Part shown: positions 7,535-23,599 of the stretch, piece by piece
How positions within the stretch are numbered: the stretch's first letter is position 1
Layout: each line of letters begins with the position of its first letter
Origin: a virus
IMG/VR virus record: IMGVR_UViG_3300028569_000123
Location: 1 to 30,046 of that record
DNA length: 30,046 nt
Reading direction: 5' to 3' (one strand)
The notes under the pieces: generated by a model
Told to the model about the DNA's origin: nothing
What the model saw: the letters and a program-made list of their open reading frames with translations, nothing else
The model's database searches: none
Translations under genes and position numbers: made by a program

Positions 7535-7548
7535 GAAAAAATAATAAC

Positions 7549-7588
7549 AAAAAATCCCGAAATGTCAAAGCATTTCGGGATTTTTTTT
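7549..7588. terminator. Bidirectional hairpin terminator/attenuator before uvsX
   Basis: Perfect inverted repeat: AAAAAATCCCGAAATG (7549-7564), loop TCAAAG, CATTTCGGGATTTTTT (7571-7586), followed by more T. It has a GC-containing core and T tracts on both strands, so it fits an intrinsic terminator in either direction. For minus-strand transcription it lies after the 132-residue gene and 14 bases before the uvsX ATG. Confidence 0.85.
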
Positions 7589-7597
7589 CTTTTATAT

Positions 7598-7657
7598 GTC
7601 AAACAAATTATTCGTCAAACAAATTATTCGTCAAACAAATTATTCGTCAAACAAATT
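7598..7657 (-). repeat. 16-bp direct repeats, four copies, at a gene's 3' end
   Basis: GTCAAACAAATTATTC occurs exactly at 7598-7613, 7614-7629 and 7630-7645, and its first 13 bases recur at 7646-7658. On the minus strand each unit reads TTTGTTTGACGAATAA. The first copy encodes the last residues (LFDE) and stop codon of the 132-residue gene, so the array is a tandem duplication of that gene's 3' end into the region before the terminator. Confidence 0.9.
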
Positions 7658-8038
7658 AACTACCTTTTCTGGCTTTTCTGTCTTTTCTGTATTTGTTTCA
7701 CCAGTAGGAGGCACGAAGAGATTATTCTTATTAAACAATTGGTTATATTGCGCTTGAAGTCTAAAGTCCAAACTTTCCAAATTTGTCTTTGTAATATTAT
7801 CACAGTTGTAATAAAATATAACATCCTCGGACTTATCGGCTAAAAATTCTCTGAAAAACAAAGGTAGTAGTTGAACTGACATACGACCTTGATTATCTGA
7901 TACGACATGAAGAATAACCGGATTTTTTACGGCAAATTTATTTTCGCTTTCGGCTTTTTCACCTAAGATAGTTCTTCCGATTGGATCGAGAAATGTTACG
8001 AGTTTTGTTTTTGTTTCTGTTTCTGTAGTATTTTCCAT
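7640..8038 (-). CDS. Small phage protein with C-terminal clamp-binding-like tail
   Basis: 132-residue protein of unknown function between the polymerase and UvsX. The N-terminus is Thr/Glu-rich. Residues about 13-105 look like a compact domain with the motifs FLDPIGRTILGE, LLPLFFREFLADKS and SLDFRLQAQYNQLF. The C-terminal 25 residues are a charged, probably disordered linker ending in KVVNLFDE. That end resembles short clamp-binding tails of T4-type proteins (hydrophobic pair plus acidic residues), as does the polymerase end LLDLFS. It could therefore be a clamp client such as a late-transcription or replisome accessory factor; this is inference. The stop codon sits inside the first of several 16-bp tandem repeats. 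Confidence 0.8.
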   Translation of the reverse strand: MENTTETETKTKLVTFLDPIGRTILGEKAESENKFAVKNPVILHVVSDNQGRMSVQLLPLFFREFLADKSEDVIFYYNCDNITKTNLESLDFRLQAQYNQLFNKNNLFVPPTGETNTEKTEKPEKVVNLFDE

Positions 8039-8089
8039 ACATTATTAATTTAACATGATATGTAATTAATTCAAGTACAAATTTAAAAT

Positions 8090-10651: not shown

Positions 10652-10682
10652 TCGAACACTATACTATAATTTAAACACTAGG

Positions 10683-11990
10683 TCAATTTATTTTTTGTTC
10701 GGGATTCAATTCTATCAACCTAGGAGCCTTTTCATTTCTTTCTTTGCTACCATATTCTGTAAAATAAACAGCTTCGTATTCGTTAATATGGTCTTCGAGC
10801 CACATAGATTCTACGTATTTTCTTGATTCTGTTGAATATTTGATATAAGAATCAAAATCTTTAGTTATTACTGATAGTTGATCAATCAAATCGTCGCCAT
10901 TATTAAATTTAAATCGAGCGTCTTCATATGTACAAAGATTTTGAAACGCACCGGGTAAGCCCAATGCACCAGATTCTATCATTTTAATATTAGATTTAGA
11001 TTTATTAAAAATATTATCAACCAACGGTGCATACACAGCATTACAATTTAAAGAATCCACTCCTGCTGGTAAATCAAATAAAGCTGACCAATTGTGATAT
11101 TCTATTTCACCGTTATCGATAAATGGTTTTAATGCTATAGGATAACATCCTTTAAAAACAAACTGAAATTTCTTTCTAGCTTTTATAATAGATTCAATCA
11201 CATGCCCGAAATCATCTTTACCGTTTGTTCGATTTAAAACGTCGATATGTGTTCCTGATCCAGCATAAAGGATTCTCGGCTTTTTCTTATTTTTATCAAA
11301 ATTATCTTCTATCTTTTTTCTATTATAATATTTATCTAACCAAAATTTAGGAGCATAATTAGGCAAAATAGTGATGTTTTTATTTCCGGTTTTATCTTGA
11401 TAATAGTCTTTCATGAATTTACAAGTGACTGTAACTTCATCAACAGACCCCATAACTTTCATAATGTTATCAACAATTTTTTGATCCGTAAAAGCATCAC
11501 GACATCTATTATACATAGGGATATCGTCTCTTAGAGCAATATCATCAATTTCATATATTATACGAAATCCCATGTTTTTCTTAACTTTTTGCAATTCTTC
11601 CACAAATGCAAGTTGTGAATCTGTTGCCTGTCTTTGCATTCTAACAGCCTTTAGAGATCCGTAAAAGCGTAGATCGAGTATCATTTGAGTCATACCCGAT
11701 ATAATACCCTTGTTATACCCATTTATTATATACTCAGGCCAAATCATCCGCCAATAACCACAACCACCATAATCAGCATAATAATTTAATGCTCTTGGTA
11801 AAGTTGCTTCAGGCATTTCAATAGGCGGTGGCTCTGGAACTTTTATAGCTGTTGCTGCTGCATAAGAATATGTAGGCGTTCCTATAGGTAATCCTGCTGG
11901 AGCATTAGGAATACCAGTATTAATTAATTTATATTGATAAACTACTTTTTCGTTTTGATTATCATTATTGTTTCTAATTGAAATTGCCAT
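10683..11990 (-). CDS. GT-B glycosyltransferase (GT4-like)
   Basis: 435-residue putative sugar-nucleotide glycosyltransferase. Residues 1-60 form a low-complexity Pro/Ala leader. The N-terminal Rossmann half follows, with the motif YYADYGGCGYWRMIWP near 71-86 and a conserved-looking FRIIYEIDDIALRDDIP. The C-terminal half begins near ILYAGSGTHIDVL (about 240-252). It contains FQFVFKGCYP and, near residue 335, NKSKSNIKMIESGALGLPG, which is the nucleotide-sugar-binding signature region of GT4-type enzymes (Ser-Lys then Glu-x-Gly-Ala). There is no signal peptide, so it acts in the cytoplasm. It sits between gp46 and the DNA polymerase, apart from the other sugar enzymes. The acceptor is unknown. 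A TGTAAATA box lies eight bases before the ATG. Confidence 0.8.
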   Translation of the reverse strand: MAISIRNNNDNQNEKVVYQYKLINTGIPNAPAGLPIGTPTYSYAAATAIKVPEPPPIEMPEATLPRALNYYADYGGCGYWRMIWPEYIINGYNKGIISGMTQMILDLRFYGSLKAVRMQRQATDSQLAFVEELQKVKKNMGFRIIYEIDDIALRDDIPMYNRCRDAFTDQKIVDNIMKVMGSVDEVTVTCKFMKDYYQDKTGNKNITILPNYAPKFWLDKYYNRKKIEDNFDKNKKKPRILYAGSGTHIDVLNRTNGKDDFGHVIESIIKARKKFQFVFKGCYPIALKPFIDNGEIEYHNWSALFDLPAGVDSLNCNAVYAPLVDNIFNKSKSNIKMIESGALGLPGAFQNLCTYEDARFKFNNGDDLIDQLSVITKDFDSYIKYSTESRKYVESMWLEDHINEYEAVYFTEYGSKERNEKAPRLIELNPEQKIN

Positions 11991-12025
11991 GTCTATTATA
12001 TTTACATAGTTTTTAAAAATTACAA

Positions 12026-13828
12026 CTATAATTTAATGGTAGTAGTTCCGTTTTTTTTCTCTAAGAAAATAGTATTATCGATATCCATATTAGAAATATT
12101 TGGATTATGCGATATTATGTATATAGCTTCGTTTTCTTTATTTACTTTATTTCTCAATATTTCTAAAAATTTAACTAATCCCTTTTCATCCAATGCACTA
12201 TCAGCCCATTCATCATACATGCTAATATTGAAATTTATACCTGTTTGCATTTTTAATAGATCTTGAAAGGTAAAAATTACAGCAGCATCAACTCTTTTTC
12301 TTTCACCGCCTGATAAGTTCCAATAATCCATATCTTTACCGTTTAATGTTTTTATAGATGTGTCAAAGGTATCATCAAAATAACATGAACAAGGTGCTTC
12401 CAGTGTTAATAAATAAAAATTTAATCTTTCGTTTAAAAATTTCAAAATCTTTTTAATTATTATAGTTTTAACGCCATCTTCCGAAACTATAATTTTAGCA
12501 TTTTCTAAAATATCAAGTTCTTTATACAATACTTTTATATCATTTTGTATTTCATTTATATGTATATTTGAATTTTCTATCAATGTATCAATATTATCTT
12601 TTTCTTCTTTTAACACATTGATAGTTTTTTCTATTTCTTCGTTTTTGGTTTCTATTATTTTAATCTGGTTGTTTAAATTTTTTAAGCGTTCGATATCAAT
12701 TTTAACTTGATTATTTTTTAATTTTAAAGCGTTTAGTATTTCTTTTATTTTATTCAATTTTATTTTTAATGTGCTATCATCATTTAAAATAATATCATAA
12801 TCTTTTTTTATTTTTTCAATATCGATAGACAATTCTTCTATCCTGTCATCAGTCGAACACGTATCTTCGGTATAAGGTCTTTTACAGCTTGGACAATTAC
12901 CTGTAGATTTTTTAAAATTGTTTATTTCTTTGGTTAAATCTATCAGTTTTGACTTTTTAACATTTAAATCTATCTCAAATTTTTTTAATTTATCGTTTAC
13001 TTTTAATAAATCTATAGTTTCGATTTGTAATATTTTATCTTCTTTATTTTTTAGATCATCTTGTAAAATTTTTAAAGTTTCTGTTACATCTGTATCATTA
13101 TTTTGAATAGTTTTAATTTCTTTTTTATTTTCTTCTATTCGATTATATAACATCGATATTTTATCTTTTTTTAAAGTTTCATTGTTTGTTTTTGTTTTTT
13201 TTAAAAAATCTAAATTTTTCTGTTCGTTTGAAAACAGAGCGGTTTTGGTATCTGAGTTTTTTTTAGTTTCGTTGTAATCTTTTCTTATCTTTAAAAGCAT
13301 TTCACTAAATATATTTAAATTCATAACTCCTTCTATGAATTTTCTTTTATCTATTTTTTTCTGTGCCATGAAAGGAATAGAATTATCAGTAGTAAGAATT
13401 ACTGAATTTTTAAATACATCTTGGTTTATCCCTAATACGTCACATATATATTCATTGTTTTTTTCTATATTAGAAAGAGTTACATCTTCTTCGTTTTTAA
13501 AAATTTTTATAGAAGCAGGTTCAAGTACTCTTTTAACAGAAAACAAATCTTTTTCTATTTTAAATTTTAGAATAGAAAAACATTCTTCTTTACTTTTATT
13601 GTTTTGTATTCTTGATTTTTTTAAATCGTTTATTGTCTCTCCGAAAATATTCCAATATAAAGCGTTTAATATGGTCGTTTTACCTATACCATTTCTGCTA
13701 CCAATATTATCTAAATTTTCTCCGGTAATTATATTAATACCTTGGGAAAAATTAATACTAATAGGAGTAGAGCCAACCGAAATAAAATTTTGAAACGTTA
13801 AATTCTCAAAAACTATATTTTTCATCAA
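12026..13828 (-). CDS. 46: Recombination endonuclease ATPase subunit, gp46/SbcC/Rad50-like
   Basis: SMC-like ATPase that with a gp47/SbcD nuclease resects DNA ends for recombination. It has 600 residues (560 in T4 gp46). Walker A is GIGKTT (47-52). Two long Lys/Glu-rich coiled-coil arms (about 180-300 and 330-460) flank a zinc hook CPSC (312-315). The ABC signature is LSGGERK (505-511), Walker B ends in DE (539-540) within SMYDEWADSALDE, and the H-loop His is about 574. All ATPase motifs are intact. The ATG is doubled (MM), so translation could begin at 13828 or 13825. The partner gp47 is not in this window. The gene begins seven bases after the stop of the methyltransferase that ends the glycan cluster. 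Confidence 0.92.
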   Translation of the reverse strand: MMKNIVFENLTFQNFISVGSTPISINFSQGINIITGENLDNIGSRNGIGKTTILNALYWNIFGETINDLKKSRIQNNKSKEECFSILKFKIEKDLFSVKRVLEPASIKIFKNEEDVTLSNIEKNNEYICDVLGINQDVFKNSVILTTDNSIPFMAQKKIDKRKFIEGVMNLNIFSEMLLKIRKDYNETKKNSDTKTALFSNEQKNLDFLKKTKTNNETLKKDKISMLYNRIEENKKEIKTIQNNDTDVTETLKILQDDLKNKEDKILQIETIDLLKVNDKLKKFEIDLNVKKSKLIDLTKEINNFKKSTGNCPSCKRPYTEDTCSTDDRIEELSIDIEKIKKDYDIILNDDSTLKIKLNKIKEILNALKLKNNQVKIDIERLKNLNNQIKIIETKNEEIEKTINVLKEEKDNIDTLIENSNIHINEIQNDIKVLYKELDILENAKIIVSEDGVKTIIIKKILKFLNERLNFYLLTLEAPCSCYFDDTFDTSIKTLNGKDMDYWNLSGGERKRVDAAVIFTFQDLLKMQTGINFNISMYDEWADSALDEKGLVKFLEILRNKVNKENEAIYIISHNPNISNMDIDNTIFLEKKNGTTTIKL

Positions 13829-13835
13829 ATCTATA

Positions 13836-14489
13836 CTATTTCATTTTTTTAAAAACACAAGATAATATATTGGTATTCTCGTCGGTTGGTTTTCTTATTA
13901 TATCTTCTATGTTGGAACTAGATATTAAATCAAACCCATTAGATTTAAAAAATTCTGTTATAGATTTTAAATTAAAATGCCACAAATGCTCATCAGGTCT
14001 CCGGTGTTTCCAGTTAAAAAACCATTCTTTGCTATGAAAATGACACTCCGGTACACTTATATAAATATAATTACATTTTAATTTTTTAATTATATTTATA
14101 TCTTCAAAATGTTCTAAAACATCAAAAAAACTAATAACATCGTAATGATCTTGTGTTATATCATCGATAAAAAAAACATTTTGGGGTATCGGATATCCTG
14201 AAACATCATTACCGTAACAATTTTTAATTGTCTTTTTACAAATTTTTAAAAAACTACAGTTACCGTATCCTATATCTAAAATAGATTCTGGTATTTTATT
14301 TATAACACCTATCAAATATCCATATCTTAAAAATGAAATCATATCACACTGTTCACCGTATGAATTGTATCGAGTGTTTACGTAATCCAAATCATACTTT
14401 TTAATATCATTTATTATTTTTTTCTGGTGTATTAATCCGTTAGGCAATATATCGTACAATTCTTCGAATTTATTTAAATTATAATCCAT
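13836..14489 (-). CDS. SAM-dependent methyltransferase (class I)
   Basis: 217-residue class I methyltransferase. The SAM-binding motif I is ILDIGYGNCSF (70-80), a DxGxGxx form. A second acidic strand end lies near GNDVSG (93-98). The post-I region FFDVLEHFED (121-130) matches the common methyltransferase type in which this Asp-x-x-x-His segment closes the site. The C-terminal part has DEHLWHFN, usual in small sugar or lipid O-methyltransferases of this type. The gene overlaps the upstream gene by 16 bases and is the last of the glycan cluster before gp46. A role in methylating a sugar made by the neighbouring transferases is likely, but DNA or protein substrates are not excluded. Confidence 0.82.
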   Translation of the reverse strand: MDYNLNKFEELYDILPNGLIHQKKIINDIKKYDLDYVNTRYNSYGEQCDMISFLRYGYLIGVINKIPESILDIGYGNCSFLKICKKTIKNCYGNDVSGYPIPQNVFFIDDITQDHYDVISFFDVLEHFEDINIIKKLKCNYIYISVPECHFHSKEWFFNWKHRRPDEHLWHFNLKSITEFFKSNGFDLISSSNIEDIIRKPTDENTNILSCVFKKMK

Positions 14490-15148
14490 GGTTTGTTTAA
14501 TTTATGTTGATTTTTTTCTATGCTTCGTTGGTTATGACTTTTATGATAAAACAATTTAACCTCTAATGGTAAAGAATCAACCAATACATTAAAACATGAT
14601 TCTACGCAATGGATTTCATCTGCTTTATAGATTAATTCTAAATAATTAAAAATGTTATCGGTATGTTCAGGTGAAACTTTAATAATTTTTAAATTGGAAT
14701 TTATTTTTGAATAATCTATACGATCTTTACCGTCACTACCAGAGCTATGAACTAGTGCATATTTAGAATTATCTGGATTTAATTTGTTATATAATTCTAT
14801 TTCATCTTTTATATTCCTATGGATTTTAAAATTTTCCCATCTTTTAATAAATGGTACGTTGTGTTGCTTATAAAAATATTCATCCCAAGAATAATTTTCA
14901 GGTGTATATTGAAATCCTATTAAAATTTTATTATTGTTATCTATATTTGATAAAAAAGAATTTATACTATTATCACAACCATCTTTAAATGATAAATTTG
15001 TTAGATCGTTGTACATTGATTTAACACTATTTAGATATTGAGGTCTACAAAATAAAGTGTATTCTAAATTACTTTGTATTAAACTTCTAACTAAACCGTT
15101 GCATATTATATGATCACCTAACCCTAGATGGTGAAATATATAAATCAT
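14474..15148 (-). CDS. Putative glycosyltransferase, GT9/heptosyltransferase-like
   Basis: 224 residues from the chosen start. The N-terminus (MIYIFHHLGLGDHIICNG) has the Gly-rich LGxGDxI turn found at the start of GT9-type (heptosyltransferase, ADP-sugar) GT-B enzymes. Near the C-terminus, IYKADEIHCVESCFNVLVDSL resembles their second Rossmann half, where a Ser/Asp stretch contacts the nucleotide. The protein is shorter than the usual 320-350 residues, so it is a reduced member or a related family. I chose the ATG at 15148 because it overlaps the previous stop as ATGA; an ATG at 15163 would add five residues (MGRKT). The end overlaps the methyltransferase gene by 16 bases. Confidence 0.65.
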   Translation of the reverse strand: MIYIFHHLGLGDHIICNGLVRSLIQSNLEYTLFCRPQYLNSVKSMYNDLTNLSFKDGCDNSINSFLSNIDNNNKILIGFQYTPENYSWDEYFYKQHNVPFIKRWENFKIHRNIKDEIELYNKLNPDNSKYALVHSSGSDGKDRIDYSKINSNLKIIKVSPEHTDNIFNYLELIYKADEIHCVESCFNVLVDSLPLEVKLFYHKSHNQRSIEKNQHKLNKPWIII

Positions 15149-15651
15149 TGTTTTTCGACCCATGCACTGAATGTTTTTTCTCCTTCTGATGTATGATCGT
15201 AAACGTCATACCCCAACGATTTAAATAAATCTGGATATAAAACTGATACATGTTTTTCATGTATATTACCATACAATTCATCTTGTGGGTATTCTCCTAT
15301 CGGTGCTTGATAAATTGTAATAACGTTAGATTTTTCTTCTATTTTATTTCTAATTTTTAAAAATTGATCCCATGTTATATGCTCTGGCCCGTGTAACCAT
15401 ATAATAGCATCAAACGTTTCTTCTAACCGTTCGATGTCTAATACATCCATACATATAGCATCGATTCCTATTTTTACCATATTTTCAACGTTGGGTTTAA
15501 AAATTTCTAAAACTTTCCATTTTTTGTTTTCGCTGTAAGCATGATTTAATAGTGTTAAATCGCTATCATTTCTAAATCCAATATTTAAAATTGATTTTAT
15601 ATTATCATTTTTTATTATTTTATCGTATACTAATTTTGTTTGATTATTCAT
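15145..15651 (-). CDS. Putative SAM-dependent methyltransferase, small
   Basis: 168-residue protein with the outline of a class I methyltransferase. The motif SILNIGFRNDSD (about 20-31) stands at the SAM-binding turn. VLEIFKPNVENM (about 47-58) carries the acidic residue that would hold the SAM ribose, MDVLDIER fits motif II, and FDAIIWLHGPEHI (about 80-92) replaces the usual catalytic-loop region. The first turn has N-x-G-x-R rather than D-x-G-x-G, so SAM binding is less certain than for the neighbouring 217-residue enzyme. It begins in an 8-base overlap (ATGAATAA) with the upstream glycosyltransferase and overlaps the downstream one as ATGA, so it belongs to the glycan operon. Confidence 0.65.
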   Translation of the reverse strand: MNNQTKLVYDKIIKNDNIKSILNIGFRNDSDLTLLNHAYSENKKWKVLEIFKPNVENMVKIGIDAICMDVLDIERLEETFDAIIWLHGPEHITWDQFLKIRNKIEEKSNVITIYQAPIGEYPQDELYGNIHEKHVSVLYPDLFKSLGYDVYDHTSEGEKTFSAWVEKQ

Positions 15652-16327
15652 AATTTATTCCTATTTTTTCTAAATCGTTTTTCCAGTTACCGTAAAAATT
15701 ATCATTTTCATCGAATGGTTGACCTACATAATACAATTTATCCCTTTCATAATTTCTCTGTGATGGGAAATTATGACTTTCATGTACAATACAATCATTC
15801 CCAACATTTGTATGAAAAAAACAATATAATAATTTTTGATCAATGCCTTTATTATCATTTTGATTTTCACAAAAATTTTTAATAAACGGTCTTATATCTT
15901 TTTTGATACCGCCCTTAGCTCCCCACATACCAGCTAAAATTGGAAATTCTGGTGTATAATGATATGGATGATCTTTCATTATATGATAAGTTTTATTGGA
16001 ATTTATCCATTCATCAACGGCCTCTTTCTCTCTAAAAGATAACCTAGAGTCAGTGTCTCTAGAAATAAAATAAGATACATTTTCTTCCTCTAATGGTAAA
16101 AATCTATATAAAGTCGAATAAAATCCTCCTTTTTTTTCAATCAAAACAGTCTCAACGTTTTGAAAATTATCCAATTCTTTTTTTAAATCAAAACATTCGG
16201 AAAATAAATAAAATCGACATACCCAATCTGGATATATATGTTGAGCTAAAATTGCATTTTTAATAGCACCTATTTTATATATTATATTATCACCAAAAAC
16301 ACAAAATGTTATTAATTTTTTAATCAT
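15644..16327 (-). CDS. Putative GT-A glycosyltransferase
   Basis: 227 residues from the ATG at 16327. The N-terminus, ITFCVFGDNIIYKIGAIKNAI, looks like a nucleotide-sugar-binding beta-alpha unit. FISRDTDSRLS (about 88-98) holds a D-T-D motif at 91-93, the metal/nucleotide-sugar DxD of GT-A enzymes. MKDHPYHY (117-124) and GMWGAKGG (133-140) follow and look like acceptor-site elements. I prefer the start at 16327 because it gives an 8-base ATGATTAA overlap with the upstream stop, the same junction type as two others here; an ATG at 16378 would add 17 hydrophobic residues and overlap the previous gene by 59 bases. The sugar donor and acceptor are unknown. Confidence 0.7.
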   Translation of the reverse strand: MIKKLITFCVFGDNIIYKIGAIKNAILAQHIYPDWVCRFYLFSECFDLKKELDNFQNVETVLIEKKGGFYSTLYRFLPLEEENVSYFISRDTDSRLSFREKEAVDEWINSNKTYHIMKDHPYHYTPEFPILAGMWGAKGGIKKDIRPFIKNFCENQNDNKGIDQKLLYCFFHTNVGNDCIVHESHNFPSQRNYERDKLYYVGQPFDENDNFYGNWKNDLEKIGINYE

Positions 16328-17588
16328 TTGCTGTAGTAGTACTCGAATTAAAAATATAATAATGTAAAAATTTATCAATATGATATTCTTTTTTTGCTTT
16401 TTCGCATAACTGTTTCAACCAAAACCAATCTTCTGTTTTTGATATATCAGGAAATTTTACACTTTTTGCTAAATTAGAATTCCATATGCACATATGGAAA
16501 GGTTTTCTTTTAATAGTTCTCCCTGCTATATAATCATCGTTAGTTTCATGGTTTAGACTAAAAATAATAGGAGTATCAGGGTCTTGATTTATTCTAGCAA
16601 TTTGTTTAAATGTTATGACATCAACGTTACCGTTTACTATTAATGTATTATATATAGTTTCAATATAATCATCCGAAATATCGTCATCGTCATCTATAAA
16701 AGAAACAAATTCTCCGTTTGATATGTCGATTAAGGATTGTCGTTTTTTACCAACTGTTCTAACTTTATTATCAATTAATGTTAAAATCTCAATTTCTTTT
16801 ACCAAATTTATTTTTTTTATCTGCTCTTCTAATTTTAGAATTAATTTTTTAACATTATCAAATCTTTCGGGTATACCTAAAATTAAAATAGACCATTTTG
16901 TTTCGGTTAAACACATGTCGAAATTTTTTTCTTTTCGTCTATCATAGGTTTTTTGATCGTGGTGCATATAAGATTCGTTTCTCACATACAACTCATCGTA
17001 ATCCGTTTTTTGAAAGGCGGGATGTTTGTGTTCTATAATAATTTTATCAGATCTATATACTTTGTTCAATGTTATTGATACATCGGTAAATTCGTTATCA
17101 CACCAAAGACTAACATAATCTGGGTGATATATATATCCAAATCTATCATAGTATTTTTTACCCATTATAGACAGAGTATTGATTCGATTTTGACCCCCAT
17201 CATTATACCATAAAACTCCGTCCATATCCCTGAAAAAATCATTCATGTCTTTTCTTATAATGTAATCGTAGCCATCTACAACGGGAATCATATCATCGGA
17301 TGCCAATAAAATAATATCCCACCCAGAAACTTTATTTATATCTGCATTGCAAGCCTGTATCTTTGTTTTACTATTACCAAAAAAATAAACTAATTTGCAT
17401 TTATTTTTGTATTCCTCTAATCTATGAATATTTGTTTTCATAGATATGTCATCATTATCAAGAGTTATTAAAAAAGCAATTTTATCTAAATTTTTTGCTT
17501 TATTTATATATTCATCAAGAACCGAAAAAAACTTATCCGGTCTTCCTCTTGTTGGAAATTTGATTAAAAGTTTAGGTTCTGTCTGCAT
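16320..17588 (-). CDS. Two-domain GT-A glycosyltransferase (tandem fusion)
   Basis: 422-residue protein made of two GT-A-type domains. Domain 1 (about 1-225) starts LLIKFPTRGRPDKF and has LLASDDM (94-100) where a DxD would stand. It also has an EHKHPAF motif near 186-192. Domain 2 (about 230-422) is GT2-like: SILILGIPERFDN, then VGKKRQSLIDISNGEFVSF leading into an acidic run DDDDD (299-303), and the acceptor-site motif TEDWFW (385-390). Domain 2 is clearly similar to the neighbouring 179-residue protein. Two active sites in one chain suggest sequential addition of two sugars. The gene starts one base after the stop of that neighbour (TAATATG), so they are co-translated. Confidence 0.8.
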   Translation of the reverse strand: MQTEPKLLIKFPTRGRPDKFFSVLDEYINKAKNLDKIAFLITLDNDDISMKTNIHRLEEYKNKCKLVYFFGNSKTKIQACNADINKVSGWDIILLASDDMIPVVDGYDYIIRKDMNDFFRDMDGVLWYNDGGQNRINTLSIMGKKYYDRFGYIYHPDYVSLWCDNEFTDVSITLNKVYRSDKIIIEHKHPAFQKTDYDELYVRNESYMHHDQKTYDRRKEKNFDMCLTETKWSILILGIPERFDNVKKLILKLEEQIKKINLVKEIEILTLIDNKVRTVGKKRQSLIDISNGEFVSFIDDDDDISDDYIETIYNTLIVNGNVDVITFKQIARINQDPDTPIIFSLNHETNDDYIAGRTIKRKPFHMCIWNSNLAKSVKFPDISKTEDWFWLKQLCEKAKKEYHIDKFLHYYIFNSSTTTAND

Positions 17589-17589
17589 A

Positions 17590-18129
17590 TTATTTTGAAG
17601 GATAATAAAAATAAAGTGGTTCGTCTATAAAAGATTCGGTTTTTAAAAGGTCTTTAACTCTTAATGAAAAATTTTGATCTTCGTGATATGATACATCAGG
17701 AAATCCTACTTGTTTAGCTATATCTCTTTTTATTGGATTTAAATGATTTGGACATCTGTAATATATTCCATTTTCTTCGTACCAATCTTTATATTGCACG
17801 GAATGTATAAATATTCTTGGCTGTATATTCTTTTGTACTATCACACCCTTCATACCTACACAGTCAGGATTTGTTTCTATGCTATTTAATATTTTTGATA
17901 CATAATAAGGCGATACCATATCATCATCGTCAACAAAACAAACATATTCTCCTTTTGCAGAATATAAAAGTTCGTTTCTCTTTTTTCCAATAGAAGATTC
18001 TCCTGTGTCAATGTTTGCTAATATTTCTATACGACCATCTCCTTGAAGTTTTAAAATTTTAGCCATATTCATTAGTAGCGGTTCTCTATTTTTCAAACCG
18101 CACATCAAAATTGATAATTTTTTATCCAT
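17590..18129 (-). CDS. Short GT2-family glycosyltransferase
   Basis: 179-residue single-domain GT2-like protein. It starts LSILMCGLKNREP and has IGKKRNELLYSAKGEYVCF leading to the metal-binding DDDD (67-70), with the acceptor-base motif HEDQNFSLR at 149-157. It shares its order of motifs with domain 2 of the next gene, so the two probably arose by duplication. There is no membrane segment, unlike many host GT2 enzymes. It is the first minus-strand gene after the inserted HNH gene, with a likely promoter at 18175-18202 (TTGACA, 16 bases, TAATAT) and a TATAAATA box 13 bases before the ATG. The target is unknown. Confidence 0.8.
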   Translation of the reverse strand: MDKKLSILMCGLKNREPLLMNMAKILKLQGDGRIEILANIDTGESSIGKKRNELLYSAKGEYVCFVDDDDMVSPYYVSKILNSIETNPDCVGMKGVIVQKNIQPRIFIHSVQYKDWYEENGIYYRCPNHLNPIKRDIAKQVGFPDVSYHEDQNFSLRVKDLLKTESFIDEPLYFYYPSK

Positions 18130-18142
18130 GTTTATAATTTAA

Positions 18143-18150
18143 TATTTATA
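18143..18150 (-). promoter_or_regulatory. TATAAATA box before the short GT2 gene
   Basis: TATAAATA on the minus strand, 13 bases before the ATG at 18129, downstream of the sigma70-like promoter candidate. The glycan operon might thus have both an early and a late start. Confidence 0.35.
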
Positions 18151-18174
18151 TGTGTATATAAATTTTCTTTTTTA

Positions 18175-18202
18175 ATATTAAGTAAAAATTTATTAATGTC
18201 AA
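18175..18202 (-). promoter_or_regulatory. Candidate sigma70-type promoter for the glycan operon
   Basis: On the minus strand TTGACA (18202-18197), a 16-base spacer, then TAATAT (18180-18175), about 45 bases before the ATG at 18129. It is a near-consensus pair, although AT-rich DNA raises the chance rate. A second TTGACA lies 12 bases further upstream (18214-18209) within the palindrome. Confidence 0.45.
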
Positions 18203-18229
18203 TAGAAATGTCAATTTTTATTGACATTT
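18195..18229. promoter_or_regulatory. Palindrome plus direct repeat of AATGTCAAT, possible operator
   Basis: AAATGTCAAT-tttt-ATTGACATTT (18206-18229) is a perfect 10-bp inverted repeat. AATGTCAAT also occurs at 18195-18203, 12 bases before its copy in the palindrome. It presents a TTGACA box to each of the two divergent genes (HNH on plus, GT2 on minus), so it may be a shared promoter or operator. Confidence 0.45.
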
Positions 18230-18277
18230 AAAAATAAAATATTCATAAAAAGGGTATAGGAAGATAAATATAACTAT

Positions 18278-18835
18278 ATGAAAGATAAAAAATATTTGAT
18301 CGAAAAAAGGGAAAAGGATCTTAAAAGACAAAAAAATTATAGATTAAAAAATAGAGACAAATTGTTACAACAAATGAAAGAATATAAGCAAAACAATAAA
18401 GAATATATAAAAGAATATAACAAAAACTATAAAATAAAAAAAAGAGAAGAAATTAAAATCTATAGTAAAGAATATAGACTTAAAAATCCTGATATAATCA
18501 AAAAATGTAAAAAAAGATTTAAACAAAAACATAGATTAGTAGAAAATTTAAGACAAAGAATACGAAAAGTTTTAAAAAAAATACCAAAAGTAAACAAATC
18601 CATGGATTTAATAGGGTGTGGTATAATAACACTAAGAAATCATTTAGAATCACAATTTAAATCCGGTATGTCTTGGGAAAATTATGGACAATATGGTTGG
18701 CACATAGATCATATAATACCATGTGCGTTCTTTGATTTATCAGATCCGGAACAACAAAAAAAATGTTTCCATTATACAAATTTACAGCCTTTATGGTGGG
18801 ATGAAAATATAGCAAAAAAAGATAAAATTATTTAA
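18278..18835 (+). CDS. HNH endonuclease, free-standing homing type
   Basis: 185-residue HNH nuclease, probably a mobile homing endonuclease. Residues 1-95 are very Lys-rich with repeated KEY..N units (for example MKEYKQNNKEYIKEYNKNYK), a DNA-binding-type region common in phage HNH proteins. Residues 110-185 hold the nuclease: WENYGQYGWHIDHIIPCAFF with the catalytic D144-H145 pair, the central Asn in YTNLQPLW (N168), and a final NIAKKDK. It is the only plus-strand gene within a run of minus-strand glycosyltransferases and overlaps the end of the convergent one by eight bases. That arrangement points to insertion. The protein looks intact. Cleavage site and specificity are unknown. Confidence 0.88.
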   Translation: MKDKKYLIEKREKDLKRQKNYRLKNRDKLLQQMKEYKQNNKEYIKEYNKNYKIKKREEIKIYSKEYRLKNPDIIKKCKKRFKQKHRLVENLRQRIRKVLKKIPKVNKSMDLIGCGIITLRNHLESQFKSGMSWENYGQYGWHIDHIIPCAFFDLSDPEQQKKCFHYTNLQPLWWDENIAKKDKII

Positions 18836-20285
18836 TTTTAAAATGAACACATCCATGTGTTTCCGTTTTTTCTATTTTAAAATTTTTTAAATCTATCTGT
18901 TTTAAACCATCATTAAACATATCATCTGTATTTTTTTCAAATTCTTGCATTTTTTTCCCGTTTAATAAATGTTGATTATATTCTACAGGATTATTTAATC
19001 TATGACTATGAGGAACTGAAAAATATTTTCCAAATTGATGTTTTAACGGGCTTAACCCTATTTTTTCACATCTTAATTTTAAATTCCTGTCTTCAGAACC
19101 CCAACCAACATAACTTATCGGATAGCCGTTTACTTTATAAAAATGTTCTTTTCTAAAAGTTATAACACCTCCCATTACAGAATCTGGCGTTTCAATATAA
19201 TTAAATTGACTACAATAAGTGGATAAATGTGAAGGATTTTTAGGGTACGAATAATCAGAAAATAATGGGATCAAATCTACATCATGAAAACAATAATAGT
19301 CATAATCCGGATTTAACAAAAACCCTATATTATTTATCAGTCCCTTATTAAAAAGATCTTTATTGTCCTGTTCGACTATATATATATCAAATATCTCAAC
19401 TTGTTTTGATACATATTCAGACAATTTTGGGATTATTGTTTCTAGTGCAGTTTTTCTGTCTCTATATGGTATAATAATTGCTAATTTTTTATCTTTGTTA
19501 TATAATTTTTTTCTACTATAATTTTTTTCAAGATGCATTAAAAATATAGGTAATAATTTTTTATCAATTTCTTGTATATTGTTTGTAAAAAATCCATGTT
19601 TTTTAATAAAATAACTTGCTGATTTATCCCAATTTTCTTTATATTGTTCTTTATTTGTAATAGTGGAATTATCATCACTACCATCAATCGTCGTTAAAAG
19701 TTTATCAGAATGTAAAACGTCAGGAAAATACCAAAACGGAGATGATACTTTATTTTTGGCTAAATTATATTCCAAATCGATATGTTCAAAAGCATTAATA
19801 TAATTTTCATCAAAATACCCTAATTTTTTAATTATATTAGAATGAAAGTATGAAAAAGCCCCCTGTGGATTATGATAAAATCCTATTGCATGTCCTGATG
19901 GTGCTTCGTATGAATATTTTAAAGTTTTTTCGTTTCCGGCAATTTTTTCAAAATTTAAATGATGTATACCAAATATATTAGCAGTTTCTATATATACATC
20001 AAAAACATTTTCATCTAAAATTAAAACATCATCTTCTATTATAAATAGATGGTCGCATTCATATTTTTCTATTAATAGTTTTAGTGCTATGTTTTTAGAC
20101 TTTGCCACTCCCAATTGTTTATTATTTTTTACTATAAAGTCTGCATCTGATTCGTTTATATAAGAATTTTCTCCATCGTTTATAACAATTAATGTGTTTA
20201 TTTTATTTTTTGGTATTTTTTCTAATACTTTTTTATAATAATCCGGTCTATTATAAGTTATAATAGCTACTCCTATTTTTGACAT
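18828..20285 (-). CDS. GT2-GT7 fusion glycosyltransferase (beta-1,4-galactosyltransferase-like C-terminus)
   Basis: 485 residues from the preferred ATG at 20285 (MSKIGVAIITYNRP); an ATG at 20324 would add 13 hydrophobic residues (MLIILFFTIKYSN). The N-terminal domain (about 1-235) is GT2-like, with IIEDDV (83-88) as the metal site. The C-terminal domain (about 265-430) follows the GT7 beta-1,4-galactosyltransferase pattern: IIIPYRDR (270-277), YIVEQ (302-306), FHDVDLIP (333-340) with the metal-binding D-V-D, GGVITF, and GWGSEDRNLKLRC (394-406). GT7 enzymes usually transfer Gal, GalNAc or Xyl to a sugar acceptor. The fusion implies two consecutive transfers by one protein. Its end overlaps the convergent HNH gene by eight bases. 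Confidence 0.87.
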   Translation of the reverse strand: MSKIGVAIITYNRPDYYKKVLEKIPKNKINTLIVINDGENSYINESDADFIVKNNKQLGVAKSKNIALKLLIEKYECDHLFIIEDDVLILDENVFDVYIETANIFGIHHLNFEKIAGNEKTLKYSYEAPSGHAIGFYHNPQGAFSYFHSNIIKKLGYFDENYINAFEHIDLEYNLAKNKVSSPFWYFPDVLHSDKLLTTIDGSDDNSTITNKEQYKENWDKSASYFIKKHGFFTNNIQEIDKKLLPIFLMHLEKNYSRKKLYNKDKKLAIIIPYRDRKTALETIIPKLSEYVSKQVEIFDIYIVEQDNKDLFNKGLINNIGFLLNPDYDYYCFHDVDLIPLFSDYSYPKNPSHLSTYCSQFNYIETPDSVMGGVITFRKEHFYKVNGYPISYVGWGSEDRNLKLRCEKIGLSPLKHQFGKYFSVPHSHRLNNPVEYNQHLLNGKKMQEFEKNTDDMFNDGLKQIDLKNFKIEKTETHGCVHFKIK

Positions 20286-20293
20286 ATTACTAT

Positions 20294-20321
20294 ATTTTAT
20301 AGTAAAAAACAAAATTATCAA
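20294..20321 (-). promoter_or_regulatory. Weak candidate promoter for the GT2-GT7 gene
   Basis: On the minus strand TTGATA (20321-20316), 16 bases, TAAAAT (20299-20294), in the 70-base gap between divergent genes. An ACTATA-ttt-TATAGT palindrome covers the minus-10 area and the first transcribed bases. The region is extremely AT-rich, so this is tentative. Confidence 0.25.
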
Positions 20322-20355
20322 CATTAATATTAAATAAATATATTAATTATTTAAA

Positions 20356-20568
20356 GTGTATAATAAAATTAATATAGCAGGAGGAAGATTTATATCGGTA
20401 GATTATAATAAGATACCACATTTAGTTTTTGAATGCCTTGACGGTAAAAAAATTACATGCTGTGATCCTGATTATTTATTAACACCAACTCCTACAATTA
20501 GACCAACTTCTACACCAACACCTACACCGACTCGTACACCAACGCCTACCCCTACTCCAACAATATGA
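20356..20568 (+). CDS. Small protein with Cys pair and Thr-Pro repeat tail
   Basis: 70-residue protein beginning with GTG. No ATG is available in frame before the upstream stop at 20344. Residues 1-40 are a short beta-rich unit ending ECLDGKKITCCDPDY with three Cys. Residues 43-70 are a Thr-Pro tail with nine TP dipeptides, interrupted by IRPTS and R. No signal peptide is visible. I do not recognise the family. Thr/Pro tails often serve as stiff linkers or O-glycosylation sites. The same plus-strand cluster contains a Skp1-type GlcNAc-transferase-like gene, so the tail is a candidate acceptor (inference). It could also be the leftover start of a longer fibre gene. An AATAAATA box lies 15 bases upstream. 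Confidence 0.6.
   Translation: MYNKINIAGGRFISVDYNKIPHLVFECLDGKKITCCDPDYLLTPTPTIRPTSTPTPTPTRTPTPTPTPTI
20482..20565 (+). repeat. Thr-Pro codon repeat (ACN CCN)n
   Basis: Imperfect hexanucleotide repeat of the type ACxCCx, coding for nine Thr-Pro pairs. Codon third positions vary (ACA, ACT, ACG; CCA, CCT, CCG), which argues for protein-level selection and not simple slippage. Confidence 0.85.
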
Positions 20569-20572
20569 TCTT

Positions 20573-20788
20573 ATGGCGTATTATGAGGGACGGGGATATC
20601 CATATATTATAGGTGGAGAGGTAACCAACGAAGGAACATTGATATGGCAAGAAAACGGTGGGGAGAGTGCGTCATTATCAAATACATTTCAATTTAATTC
20701 TGATATTCATTATAGTGATTATCTGTCGCTAACTGTAAGATGTGAAACAGATCCAGTCACATCGCTAATACCACCTCCAGTACCTTAA
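20573..20788 (+). CDS. Small hypothetical protein with Pro-rich end, 71 aa
   Basis: Unrecognised. It has Gly/Tyr-rich, beta-prone sequence (YYEGRGYPYIIGGEVTNEG), a polar middle, one Cys near the end and a Pro-rich C-terminus (PVTSLIPPPVP). The layout, a small domain, Cys, then a Pro tail, matches the preceding gene, which ends four bases earlier in another frame. They are probably a pair of small virion-associated or surface proteins. Nothing in the sequence shows an enzyme. No ribosome-binding site is visible; the ATG at 20573 is the first in frame. Confidence 0.55.
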   Translation: MAYYEGRGYPYIIGGEVTNEGTLIWQENGGESASLSNTFQFNSDIHYSDYLSLTVRCETDPVTSLIPPPVP

Positions 20789-20792
20789 CAAT

Positions 20793-21422
20793 ATGAAATA
20801 TACCCACATGCCTTTTTTTATAAATCAAAATTTTGGTTATTTTTGTGTAGCAAATGAATACAAACAATATCAAAATGTAAATTACATGCCTTGGAAATTG
20901 GTTTCTGGTAATTTAGAAAATTATGAAGAAGTAGAATTTCCACACGAACCAAAATCTCCTTTTCATGTTCATTGTTCTCCTATTTTTGTTAATAATATAT
21001 TAAGTTTAAGTTACAATTCCAATGTTTATATAAAGAATAATAATGTTTGGGAAATTGTAAAAGAAAAGGTATGGCAAGGATTTTTTGATGGAGAATTTGC
21101 AAATTGTGTATATTCCAACAAAGCATTTATAAAAAATAAAGAAATTAATTTTTCTTTATTTGAAAAAAATTACAGAATAGCTCCTTTTAATGAAAATTAT
21201 ATTATAACAGGACAGTTACCAACATCAGAAATTAAATCTATAATAGTTAATACAGATGGTGATTTTTTGGGAGAAATACAAGACAGTTTTGGTAATTATG
21301 TATATAAATGCAATATAATAGATGATACATTATACCATTCTGTTAAAAAAATTGAAAACGGAATATGGAATTCTGAAAATTACGAAATACAAAAAACAAA
21401 TAATTTTATCATCAAATTATAA
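20793..21422 (+). CDS. Hypothetical beta-rich protein, 209 aa
   Basis: Unrecognised. The chain is dominated by aromatic residues, Asn and short beta strands. Repeating strand-turn units (SPIFVNNILSLSYNSNVYIK, GEFANCVYSNKAFIKNKEIN, NENYIITGQLPTSEIKSIIV) suggest a partial beta-propeller or sandwich. An N-terminal part with MPFFINQNFGYFCVANEYKQ could be surface-exposed. There is no signal peptide or catalytic motif. The gene starts four bases after the 71-residue gene and ends 17 bases before the GlcNAc-transferase-like gene, so it is probably in one operon with them. A structural or sugar-recognition role is possible, but function is unknown. Confidence 0.65.
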   Translation: MKYTHMPFFINQNFGYFCVANEYKQYQNVNYMPWKLVSGNLENYEEVEFPHEPKSPFHVHCSPIFVNNILSLSYNSNVYIKNNNVWEIVKEKVWQGFFDGEFANCVYSNKAFIKNKEINFSLFEKNYRIAPFNENYIITGQLPTSEIKSIIVNTDGDFLGEIQDSFGNYVYKCNIIDDTLYHSVKKIENGIWNSENYEIQKTNNFIIKL

Positions 21423-21439
21423 TTTATATAATTTAATAT

Positions 21440-22360
21440 ATGAAAAATAAAATATTTGTACAGATTGCATCATATAGAGATCCTGAATTAATTCCAACTA
21501 TTAAAGATTGTATAGCAAAAGCAAAACATCCAAAAAACTTAACATTTGGAATTTGTTGGCAAAGAGATGAAACCGAAAGTTTGGATCAATTCAAAGACGT
21601 TCCAGATTTTAGAATTATAGATATTCCTTGGAATAAGAGCAAAGGGTTATGTTGGGCTAGAAGTCTTATACAAAAATTATGGAACGGAGAAGAATATACA
21701 TTACAATTAGATAGTCATCATAGGTTTCTACAAAATTGGGATGAAGAGTTAATCAATATGATGAGCCTTACGGATTCCAAAAAACCAATCATTACTTCAT
21801 ATGCTGGAATGTATTCACCAAAAGAAAATAAATTATTAAATCATGATCCATATAAAATGGTTGCTGATAAATTTACAGAATATGGTACAATATTATTTTA
21901 TCCACATTTTATTGAAAATTGGGAAAGTTTAAAAAAACCAATTCCTGCAAAATTTGTAAGTGGGCATTTTTATTTTACATTAGGAGTTCATTGTAAAGAA
22001 TATAAATATGATCCTAATATATATTTTGCAGGAGATGAAATTAGTTTAAGCATTAGATCATTTACATTGGGATATGATTTGTTTCATCCACACAAGCTTG
22101 TAATTTGGCACGAATATACCAGAGAAGGAAGAACAAAGCATTGGACAGATTTTAACGAAGAAAACAAAAAACAAGGTAAGGTTGATAAAATGTGGTGGGA
22201 AATGGATATTGAAAGTAAAAAACGTCTTCGTCATTTATTGCAAGAGGAAGACAATAATATAGATTTAGGAGTTTATGGCTTGGGAGATGTAAGAAGTCAT
22301 CATGATTATGAATTATATGCTGGAATAGATTTTAAGAACAGAACCTTGAAGTCAATATAA
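21440..22360 (+). CDS. GlcNAc-transferase-like protein (Skp1-type, GT60-like)
   Basis: 306-residue glycosyltransferase resembling the family of UDP-GlcNAc:Skp1-hydroxyproline GlcNAc-transferases. The N-terminal motif IFVQIASYRDPEL (5-17) and the second strand FGICWQRD are typical. The metal/donor motif is LQLDSHHRF, with D-S-H at 91-93 where the family has DxH. Further family-like elements are KFVSGHFYFTLG (171-182) and GDEISLSIRSFTLGYDLFHP (198-217). The known eukaryotic enzymes modify hydroxyproline or Ser/Thr in the cytosol, whereas phage and bacterial members have no settled substrate. It is on the plus strand beside small Pro-tailed proteins and a lectin-like gene, apart from the minus-strand glycan cluster. 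Confidence 0.82.
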   Translation: MKNKIFVQIASYRDPELIPTIKDCIAKAKHPKNLTFGICWQRDETESLDQFKDVPDFRIIDIPWNKSKGLCWARSLIQKLWNGEEYTLQLDSHHRFLQNWDEELINMMSLTDSKKPIITSYAGMYSPKENKLLNHDPYKMVADKFTEYGTILFYPHFIENWESLKKPIPAKFVSGHFYFTLGVHCKEYKYDPNIYFAGDEISLSIRSFTLGYDLFHPHKLVIWHEYTREGRTKHWTDFNEENKKQGKVDKMWWEMDIESKKRLRHLLQEEDNNIDLGVYGLGDVRSHHDYELYAGIDFKNRTLKSI

Positions 22361-22423
22361 AAATTGATTTATACAATGCTCTATTGACGTTTTAAATAAA
22401 TACAAAATTACTAAGTACGTAAC

Positions 22424-22431
22424 TATAAATA
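22424..22431 (+). promoter_or_regulatory. TATAAATA late-promoter-like box
   Basis: TATAAATA, identical to the T4 late promoter core, nine bases before the ATG of the lectin-like gene. Similar NNTAAATA boxes precede seven other genes here at 7-15 bases. If it is a promoter, the leader would be only a few bases long. Confidence 0.4.
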
Positions 22432-22440
22432 TTACATGAT

Positions 22441-23361
22441 ATGGTAAATTACATTGGATTCGGAAAATCATATGATATAACAGTTTCAAAAACTCAAAAT
22501 GATCCTGTTACGACTACATCAGATTGTGGTTGTGATTTAGGACCCGGAAGTCCATATATAGTTTCTAGCAGTCCCTCAACTTATTCTACAAGCATAGATG
22601 GTATTGTTGGAAATCGTCCTCCAAATATTTCTTTAGACATTCCAACTCCACCTATTAAATGTGTTTTTCCTTGTTTAAGTCCACTAATAGGTAAAATAGG
22701 TAAAAATTCTTTTTATATAGGATTTGGAGGATCTACCGGAGCTTCCACTAATGAACACTGGCTGCATAATGTAACATGGAATTCTTCTTTAAATTCTTTG
22801 AGTTATTCAGACATTTTAAATAATTCTAATTATTTAAATGATGCAATAAAAATAGGAAACTCTGTTAGATTTACGCAAGCAGGAAATGACCAAACTGGCA
22901 ATATTTTTTATACAACTCCTATATACTTTTTAGATAGTAATTCAAATTTATTAAATTGGTCTTGTTATTATGTGTTTTCAATGGGGGGTGGAAGCAGAGC
23001 AGATGGGATTACGTTTATTTTACAAAGTTATTCTAATATTGCAGGTGGTTTTGGCGGTGGATTGGCATATGATGGAATTCCTAATAGTGTAGCTGTTGGA
23101 TATGATTCATATCAAAATTATTTTGATCCGAATAATAACCATATAGAAATAGATGTAAATGGAAGTGTTTCAAGCTCATTAATAACGTTTACACCCCCAT
23201 TTAATATGTGCGGTAATACAGGAACGAATAAATACATATATAATTGGGTTGATTATACGAGTGGAGTTTTAAAAATATATACTTCTGAATCAAACACTAA
23301 ACCATCTACTCCTTATATATCATATTCTATAGATTTAAAGGATTATCTTATTGTTGCATAA
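22441..23361 (+). CDS. L-type (legume-type) lectin-like protein, shortened C-terminus
   Basis: 306-residue protein. Residues 1-85 are a linker with a Cys cluster (SDCGCDLGPGSP) and Ser/Pro-rich sequence. From about 88 to the end it follows the L-type lectin fold: ADGITFILQS (187-196), GGFGGGLAYDGIPNSVAV (202-219), then YDSYQNYFDP and HIEIDVNG (234-241). Legume-type lectins bind sugars with the help of Ca/Mn held by a Glu-x-Asp pair. Here the Glu position is Gly (G220-Y-D222), so metal binding may be altered. The chain stops at IDLKDYLIVA, just where the last strand (usually YVGFTAxTG) is expected. It is likely a virion carbohydrate-binding protein, and secretion is not indicated. The start is set by the TATAAATA-bearing leader. 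Confidence 0.8.
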   Translation: MVNYIGFGKSYDITVSKTQNDPVTTTSDCGCDLGPGSPYIVSSSPSTYSTSIDGIVGNRPPNISLDIPTPPIKCVFPCLSPLIGKIGKNSFYIGFGGSTGASTNEHWLHNVTWNSSLNSLSYSDILNNSNYLNDAIKIGNSVRFTQAGNDQTGNIFYTTPIYFLDSNSNLLNWSCYYVFSMGGGSRADGITFILQSYSNIAGGFGGGLAYDGIPNSVAVGYDSYQNYFDPNNNHIEIDVNGSVSSSLITFTPPFNMCGNTGTNKYIYNWVDYTSGVLKIYTSESNTKPSTPYISYSIDLKDYLIVA

Positions 23362-23371
23362 ATATAATAAA

Positions 23372-23548
23372 ATGTCAAATATAATAAAACTTAATTCATA
23401 CACTAAAGGAAGATTAGTTATCAGAGGAAGCTTTTTAGTTTCTACCGATGATCCTAATGATTGTTTAATAACTACAAAAACGACAACACCACAAAACGAG
23501 TTTATAGTAGAAACCTATGCAACTGGTCTCCTTCCGAATGAAGAATAA
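23372..23548 (+). CDS. Small hypothetical protein, 58 aa
   Basis: Unrecognised small protein (MSNIIKLNSYTKGRLVIRG...). The N-terminal half is beta-prone. A single Cys stands in DDPNDCLITTKTTTP, followed by a Thr-rich stretch and an acidic end (LLPNEE). I chose the ATG at 23372; a TTG at 23351 would add seven residues and overlap the lectin gene. A CATAAATA box lies seven bases before the ATG, overlapping the lectin stop codon. The Asp-Pro-x-x-Cys then Thr-rich layout recalls the other tiny proteins in this cluster. It may be a small virion component. No activity can be inferred. Confidence 0.55.
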   Translation: MSNIIKLNSYTKGRLVIRGSFLVSTDDPNDCLITTKTTTPQNEFIVETYATGLLPNEE

Positions 23549-23558
23549 TATGATGTTT

Positions 23559-23581
23559 AAAACTTTATTTTTAGAAGTTTT
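23559..23581 (+). other. Short inverted repeat before the 1,893-aa gene
   Basis: AAAACTT (23559-23565), nine-base loop, AAGTTTT (23575-23581). It is a weak AT-rich hairpin without a following long T tract, so a terminator is doubtful. It ends just before a TCTAAATA box at 23583-23590, which lies nine bases before the next ATG. Confidence 0.3.
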
Positions 23582-23599
23582 GTCTAAATAGTAGATAAC

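Follow-up and report, generated by a model that had tools for sequence, protein, structure and literature searches.

An island of glycosyltransferase and methyltransferase genes, conserved among uncultured T4-like phages, that separates gp47 from gp46 and may serve in glycan assembly

IMG/VR virus record IMGVR_UViG_3300028569_000123 is a 30,046-base viral fragment of an incomplete genome (the window, meaning the whole stretch that was analyzed), and next to its recombination gene gp46 lies an island of five glycosyltransferase genes, together encoding seven domains, and two methyltransferase-like genes. The island is real and conserved: in relatives it lies between gp47 and gp46, probably as an insertion, and combines a conserved core of glycosyltransferases with a variable cassette resembling those of O-antigen loci; it would be a variant of phage-encoded glycan synthesis. 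We interpret it as a locus with which an uncultured lineage of T4-like phages assembles glycans, and its soluble enzymes would build a variable, O-methylated glycan with phage structural protein(s) as the most likely acceptor, and we give this interpretation a probability of roughly 0.55.

Gene calls were made from open reading frame (ORF) lists and profile scans against Pfam and PHROGs. The minus strand of the window carries genes for gp32, a DnaB-type helicase, UvsX, a family B DNA polymerase (PolB), a GT-B glycosyltransferase, and gp46, so that the T4-like replication and recombination set sits in a single block; gp47 was not found in the window. The island follows at 13836-20324 on the same strand. 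Outward from gp46, its genes are as follows.

12026..13828, minus strand: gp46, SbcC-like recombination nuclease subunit and island border (phrog_77, E 7e-85), with a homologue beside the island in 22 of the 22 closest relatives
13836..14489, minus strand: class I S-adenosylmethionine (SAM) methyltransferase (Methyltransf_23), 217 amino acids (PF13489, E 2.9e-16; phrog_6564, E 2e-11)
14474..15163, minus strand: GT9-like GT-B glycosyltransferase by fold, 229 amino acids, with an invariant N-terminal GLGD motif
15145..15651, minus strand: methyltransferase-like protein, 168 amino acids, by the motifs ILNIGFRND and DAIIWLHGPEHI alone
15644..16327, minus strand: GT-A glycosyltransferase by fold, 227 amino acids, with RDxD invariant
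16320..17588, minus strand: tandem GT2-like glycosyltransferase of two domains, 422 amino acids (phrog_14945, E 1.5e-18, residues 7-222; phrog_14775, E 1.5e-29, residues 230-419)
17590..18129, minus strand: GT2 glycosyltransferase, 179 amino acids (PF00535, E 9e-8, over the cut-off; phrog_14775, E 8e-37)
18278..18835, plus strand: HNH/endonuclease VII-like gene, probably a homing endonuclease, within the island (phrog_1035, E 1.6e-12)
18828..20324, minus strand: bifunctional GT2 plus GT7 (beta-1,4-galactosyltransferase-like) protein, up to 498 amino acids (phrog_2456, E 5e-27; PF13733, E 3.5e-18; PF02709, E 3.2e-13)

A first-pass annotation of this DNA, made by reading the sequence without database searches, had proposed the five glycosyltransferase and two methyltransferase genes beside gp46, and profiles and folds bore out both the genes and their order. 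It had also described them as packed with 1-base gaps or overlaps. The spacings outward from gp46 are 7, −16, −19, −8, −8, and +1 bases, so tight packing holds for these genes, but the GT2 and GT2+GT7 genes are 698 bases apart, and this stretch holds the HNH gene, which the annotation overlooked.

The methyltransferase assignment of the gp46-proximal protein is firm, and a homologue 78 to 79% identical to it adjoins gp46 in two relatives (L014 and L015). The GT9-like protein is short and divergent, and profile searches with it gave no match; single-sequence scans for relatives of this protein and of the 168-amino-acid methyltransferase-like protein gave none. We gathered relatives of the GT9-like and GT-A proteins from neighboring loci, aligned them, folded the two proteins with AlphaFold 2 (AF2), and compared the models by Foldseek and VIA. 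A profile search of Protein Data Bank (PDB) sequences gave nothing useful for either protein, so fold comparison carries both assignments. The GT9-like model (AF2 predicted local distance difference test [pLDDT] score, 87.9) matched GT9 structure 3tov by Foldseek (E 1.7e-4) and by VIA (Z 13.1, root mean square deviation 4.2, 217 residues aligned), as well as 1psw (VIA Z 12.8), in keeping with a GT-B fold of the GT9 heptosyltransferase type; on these models the protein would belong to GT9 by fold only. The GT-A model (pLDDT 85.7) matched glycogenin (E 3e-7) and the PBCV-1 capsid glycosyltransferase 2p73 (E 6e-6), with VIA Z scores of 13.6 to AvpGT and 13.3 to glycogenin and a further match to GtrB. 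Because its relatives begin there, the GT-A gene probably starts at the ATG at 16327 and not at the listed TTG at 16378, which would lie 17 codons too early.

The remaining glycosyltransferases were assigned from profiles. The tandem GT2 protein also matched phrog_8858, listed together with phrog_14775, with E values of 1e-18 to 1e-29 across its matches, and the DDDD and KRN motifs of the single GT2 protein are invariant. In the GT2+GT7 protein, which likely starts at 20285, the C-terminal half matched solved beta-1,4-galactosyltransferases (E 4e-23). Its GT7N and GT7C domains both score over the cut-off, and DVD and GWG.ED are invariant in 19 aligned sequences, placing it in GT7. The 168-amino-acid protein had no match in Pfam, PHROGs, phage records, or the PDB, and from its motifs it reads like a Rossmann SAM methyltransferase. 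Most of the island proteins are therefore glycosyltransferases by profile or fold. No strong membrane segment was seen in the island enzymes of the window.

A scan of IMG/VR viral contigs with the tandem GT2 protein returned 41 loci. Among the 22 closest relatives (L003 to L024), some of which are near-identical or duplicate contigs (e.g., L005/L006 and L018/L019), gp46 lies downstream on the same strand in every case, and the island genes form a linked block beside it instead of occurring singly. The GT-B gene and then PolB follow gp46 in most of those loci whose contigs extend that far. An exact-pattern search of viral contigs for a sibling of the left half of the window found none.

Seven relatives were mapped closely by ORF clustering, with profile scans of one of them; three are long contigs of 203, 195, and 177 kb, and the other four are shorter. 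Their shared order is UvsW-like helicase, gp55-like sigma factor, gp47, two GT2-like genes, GT2+GT7, GT2 and/or a gene for a 333-amino-acid protein, tandem GT2, variable cassette, gp46, GT-B, and PolB; one relative (G001) has the same order plus additional small genes. The clusters of the glycosyltransferase core, which is fixed and lies toward gp47, occur in 5 to 7 of the seven contigs, and those of the cassette, toward gp46, in 1 to 4. As a consequence, gp47 and gp46 are not close to each other in the mapped relatives but are separated by the island, whereas in T4 and cyanophage Syn33 they are parted by just one or two very small genes with no island. Because gp47 and gp46 are close in T4 and Syn33 and the gene order of the relatives is conserved, the island seems to have been inserted at a single, constant position in the lineage. 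The first-pass description of the island as lying upstream of gp46 was right that gp46 adjoins it but missed this more informative placement.

In five relatives (L017 to L021) only the N-terminal domain of the tandem GT2 protein is shared and the partner domain differs. In another phage group (L025 to L031) the same N-terminal domain is paired with the GT-A protein away from gp46. The pattern, with the N-terminal domain kept, its partner swapped, and the domain paired with GT-A elsewhere, may reflect domain shuffling.

The cassettes of relatives carry glycosyltransferase, FkbM methyltransferase, Gly_transf_sug, exostosin-like, and Glyco_trans_1_2 genes and sometimes sugar-nucleotide genes. Short-chain dehydrogenase/reductase (SDR) epimerase or dehydratase genes were found in 4 of 10 long relatives, at positions within the island (L019, L020, and L021). 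In the short contig L023, the stretch from the tandem GT2 N-terminal domain to gp46 (5600-15282) holds genes for an RfbH-type dehydratase (463.9 bits against an NCBIfam cut-off of 423), a glucose 4,6-dehydratase-like protein, an acetolactate-synthase-like thiamine pyrophosphate enzyme, an AroB-related cyclase, an SDR, and an aldolase-like protein. This set suggests an unusual dideoxy or branched sugar, the exact product of which we infer from the genes. Neither sugar nucleotidyltransferases (PF00483) nor 2-oxoglutarate oxygenases (PF13640) were found in ten relatives, although the controls were matched by both models. The first-pass annotation saw no donor-synthesis gene in the window and looked to the host or the rest of the genome for donors; for part of the lineage, the sugar-nucleotide genes in the relatives' cassettes supply the answer. 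Its idea of an ordered glycan pathway with methyl capping proved reasonable, with relatives adding FkbM methyltransferases and some sugar-nucleotide genes.

In the pathway that we propose, the island probably arose by insertion into the gp47-gp46 interval, where it has been retained. Its soluble enzymes would take nucleotide sugars from the cytoplasm of the infected cell, which for the window phage we infer to be host derived, and add the sugars singly. The inner glycan would come from the conserved core, namely, the GT2+GT7, GT2, and tandem GT2 genes, joined in relatives by another two GT2-like genes, together with the GT-B enzyme past gp46. The outer sugars would be varied by the cassette adjoining gp46, as in bacterial O-antigen loci, and the SAM methyltransferases would cap the product. 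The acceptor would most likely be one or more phage structural proteins.

A virion protein is our best guess for the target, by elimination and by weak homology. The N-terminal domain of the GT2+GT7 protein has 23% identity (E 3e-10) to Maravista gp99, from a cluster F1 mycobacteriophage, and in two phages of this cluster, Che8 and Rita, the capsid proteins are reported to be glycosylated (PMC11256854). The match of the GT-A model to the PBCV-1 capsid glycosyltransferase also counts in favor of a virion target. Several observations weigh against a virion target. The link to the cluster F1 enzymes is itself weak, at about 22% identity; the intact part of the locus yielded no structural protein in which a tract for glycosylation is obvious; a strict Pro/Thr-rich protein is absent from two long relatives (G003 and G012); and screening of Ser/Thr-rich segments as acceptors in G003, G007, and G012 gave no clear candidate. 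Furthermore, the island is surrounded by replication genes and not by late structural genes, and the T4 DNA alpha-glucosyltransferase gene adjoins gene 47, a position that fits DNA modification too.

These last two points favor a reading in which the island enzymes hypermodify phage DNA, placing sugars on a hydroxylated base as in the glucosyl-hydroxymethylcytosine of T4 or the arabinosyl-deoxycytidine of RB69-like phages and so conferring restriction resistance, with the cassette tracking host restriction systems. The diversity of the cassette is consistent with such an arms race, and multi-sugar DNA modification by phage enzymes has been published (Pyle 2024, as cited in PMC12619734). The glycosyltransferases of T-even and RB69-type phages resemble those of the island in being encoded by T4-like phages but belong to different families, and no Pfam model of the T4 DNA glucosyltransferases was matched by any island protein. 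A thymidylate-synthase-family enzyme is the source of hydroxymethyl-dCMP (hmdCMP) and 5-hydroxy-dCMP (5-hodCMP), which T4- and RB69-type DNA glycosylation needs (PMC13390438). This family (PF00303) is absent from close relatives, including the 177-, 195-, and 203-kb contigs, in a search that did detect it in two other, more distant contigs. The TET/JBP oxygenase model PF12851 had zero matches in ten contigs and zero in the control genomes too. T4-type DNA glycosylation is disfavored by the lack of the thymidylate-synthase family, whereas a TET/JBP route may still exist; we regard DNA as an unlikely target overall.

The same variable cassettes with sugar-nucleotide genes resemble bacterial O-antigen and capsule loci, in which conserved assembly genes accompany a variable block of glycosyltransferase, sugar-nucleotide, and methyltransferase genes, and enzymes that make surface polysaccharides commonly have GT9 and GT-A folds. 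The enzymes might accordingly be supposed to alter the O-antigen, capsule, or teichoic acid on the surface of the infected host and so block superinfection or readsorption. The island differs from such loci in being a phage operon; the lipid-carrier initiator PF02397 (polyprenyl-phosphate sugar transferase) is missing from ten relatives, although the family was matched in nine control genomes, and the window enzymes are without strong membrane segments. Serotype-conversion genes usually sit beside an integrase, whereas the island lies in a lytic T4-like replication region and not next to one. We consider host-surface remodeling quite improbable.

The remaining reading involves a GT60 gene to the right of the island, which the first-pass annotation had noted on the plus strand. 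The gene is present, but it lies beyond a probable junction and probably outside the island. The two features are as follows.

20562..20563, no strand: probable assembly junction where a Pro/Thr-coding repeat ends, from comparison with contig L097 and a shift in identity to relative G003
21440..22360, plus strand: GT60 polypeptide N-acetylglucosamine (GlcNAc)-transferase-like protein (PF11397, E 2.9e-68), right of the junction and probably outside the island

The sibling contig L097, which came from a GT60 scan, is 99.9% identical to window positions 20563-28357 and different to the left of 20563. There L097 continues into a 1,725-amino-acid structural protein with a C-terminal Pro/Thr tract of 112 residues, whereas the window has instead a short Pro/Thr ORF adjoining the GT2+GT7 gene. 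The identity of window genes to G003 is 42 to 83% left of the junction and 85 to 98% right of it, and L097 is collinear with 159-179 kb of G003, mostly at 85 to 100% amino acid identity. We conclude that window positions 20563-30046, with the GT60, lectin, and giant structural protein genes, were probably joined by misassembly at the repetitive Pro/Thr-coding stretch. There are a few mismatches to L097 immediately right of the junction, and base composition differs by 0.24 between the left and right halves, which is within the spread inside single relatives and neither supports nor excludes a chimera; together, these observations leave room for a natural recombinant. Whether misjoin or recombinant, the GT60, lectin, and giant protein genes would need read evidence to be counted as island neighbors, and we rejected GT60 as an island member in the window on account of the junction. 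Two ORFs at the junction were also rejected as genes in their own right: the 70-amino-acid Pro/Thr ORF (20356-20568) is cut by the junction, and the ORF at 20573-20788 is a C-terminal stub of the 1,725-amino-acid protein in a frame different from that of the Pro/Thr ORF. Further right, at 22441-23361, lies the gene for a protein whose legume-lectin-like domain matches PF00139 (E 1e-22), next to that for a 1,893-amino-acid structural protein; the two proteins are 85% and 93% identical to their G003 counterparts.

The GT60 protein of the window is 100% identical in L097, where it lies beside a mucin-like tract: the 1,725-amino-acid protein, a Thr-rich acceptor candidate, is encoded one small gene upstream of GT60. 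We surveyed the 80 best GT60 loci (L097 to L176; 69 clusters after de-duplication) and found a Pro/Thr/Ser-rich tract within 6 kb of GT60 in 50 of them, with 122 of 127 tracts encoded on the same strand as GT60 and the Pro/Thr-rich gene often directly upstream. Under a strict threonine criterion, 41/80 GT60 loci had such a tract, compared with 0/39 control loci around the tandem GT2 gene of phages for which no GT60 is known (Fisher P 1e-9) and 1/18 distant regions of GT60 contigs (P 4e-4); the GT60 loci are partly related, making both P values optimistic. In two phages (G019 and G020), the gene adjoining GT60 encodes a protein of 758 to 763 amino acids in which TPTNTPT-like repeats extend over several hundred residues. 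L097 and G003 offer a ready-made comparison: their large structural proteins share 94% identity over 1,527 residues, but both the Pro/Thr tail and GT60 are present in L097 and missing from G003. These patterns in the genes suggest mucin-type O-glycosylation of phage proteins by phage GT60. There are counterexamples, in that the cultured phages XacN1 and RAS14 carry GT60 without an annotated mucin-like neighbor. In the jumbo phage XacN1 (AP018399), GT60 is followed by a carbamoyl transferase gene (219791-223508), with a GT9 gene nearby, in a DNA polymerase region. The literature searched contained no paper mentioning both bacteriophages and GT60, and the link between GT60 and Pro/Thr-rich proteins looks new.

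The polypeptide alpha-GlcNAc-transferase of Trypanosoma cruzi is a member of GT60. It starts the O-glycans of T. cruzi mucins with GlcNAc on Thr, and beta-Gal is then added at O-4 (PMC3769586), an order matching GT60 plus GT7. The window GT60 might likewise start mucin-type glycans on a Pro/Thr-rich virion protein, with the island enzymes, GT7 first, extending them, all within one genome. The strong association of GT60 with Pro/Thr-rich proteins fits this scheme, and in G019 and G020 a single region encodes GT60, a mucin-like protein, and relatives of the tandem GT2 N-terminal domain and of GT-A. However, the window GT60 lies beyond the probable misassembly, 21 of 23 contigs with tandem GT2 relatives have no GT60, and PF02709 (GT7) occurs in just 2 of 24 GT60 contigs. 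We therefore rejected a T. cruzi-like order of GT60 and then GT7 within one phage, GT7 being rare with GT60, and we rate the one-genome scheme very improbable indeed.

Three further features of the locus deserve mention. The first-pass annotation's additional GT-B enzyme between gp46 and the DNA polymerase is present.

10683..11990, minus strand: GT-B glycosyltransferase (phrog_7162, E 4e-22)

It is 58 to 68% identical at the matching position in relatives whose contigs extend there, with E297 and E339 invariant, and its alignment, searched against genome contigs for a host, found no relative. The start of gp46 is apparently TTG, with an ATG possible one codon later. The HNH gene of the window has a 78% identical homologue at the corresponding spot beside GT2+GT7 in G004 (21261-21827), on the opposite strand, and it, too, is probably a homing endonuclease.

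To our knowledge, cluster F1 mycobacteriophages carry few glycosyltransferases and have no comparable multigene island with methyltransferase, GT7, GT9-like, and sugar-nucleotide genes. The lineage described here also differs from them in being T4-like and uncultured. It resembles them in encoding soluble GT2-like enzymes, one of which has the distant N-terminal similarity described above, and virion glycosylation is reported for the F1 phages Che8 and Rita (Freeman et al. 2023). Chlorovirus PBCV-1 sets a precedent for a virus that builds and methylates the glycans of its own capsid with such enzymes; two methyltransferase activities complete the outer sugars, and there is antigenic variation (PMC9614988). 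Its machinery (A064R, A061L, and A111/114R) shares with the island a GT-A fold (2p73) and virus-encoded, multidomain glycosyltransferases. Unlike the T4-like lineage, PBCV-1 is a eukaryotic algal virus with N-linked glycans on its major capsid protein, and no close sequence relation to the island has been shown. Moraphages are likewise large aquatic phages, with four core orthologous groups of glycosyltransferases, but they form a separate lineage outside the T4 group, and the available excerpt of PMC12619734 describes no gp47/gp46 island for them.

A more far-reaching reading, which we consider somewhat less likely than not, is of an uncultured T4-like lineage with a serotype-like locus for its own particles, consisting of a conserved core and an exchangeable outer-sugar cassette between gp47 and gp46, with some members having their own dideoxy or branched sugar pathway; in parallel, many phages may make mucin-like Pro/Thr-rich proteins O-glycosylated by phage GT60. 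The literature searched contains no earlier description of such a mucin-type system for bacterial viruses, and the GT60/mucin-like protein link provides a specific example on which mucin-type glycosylation in phages can be tested. Should the island decorate virions, the surface sugars of particles would vary within one lineage as O-antigens do among bacteria, which would change the understanding of host range, particle stability, and phage-phage competition and would provide a source of compact soluble glycosyltransferases.

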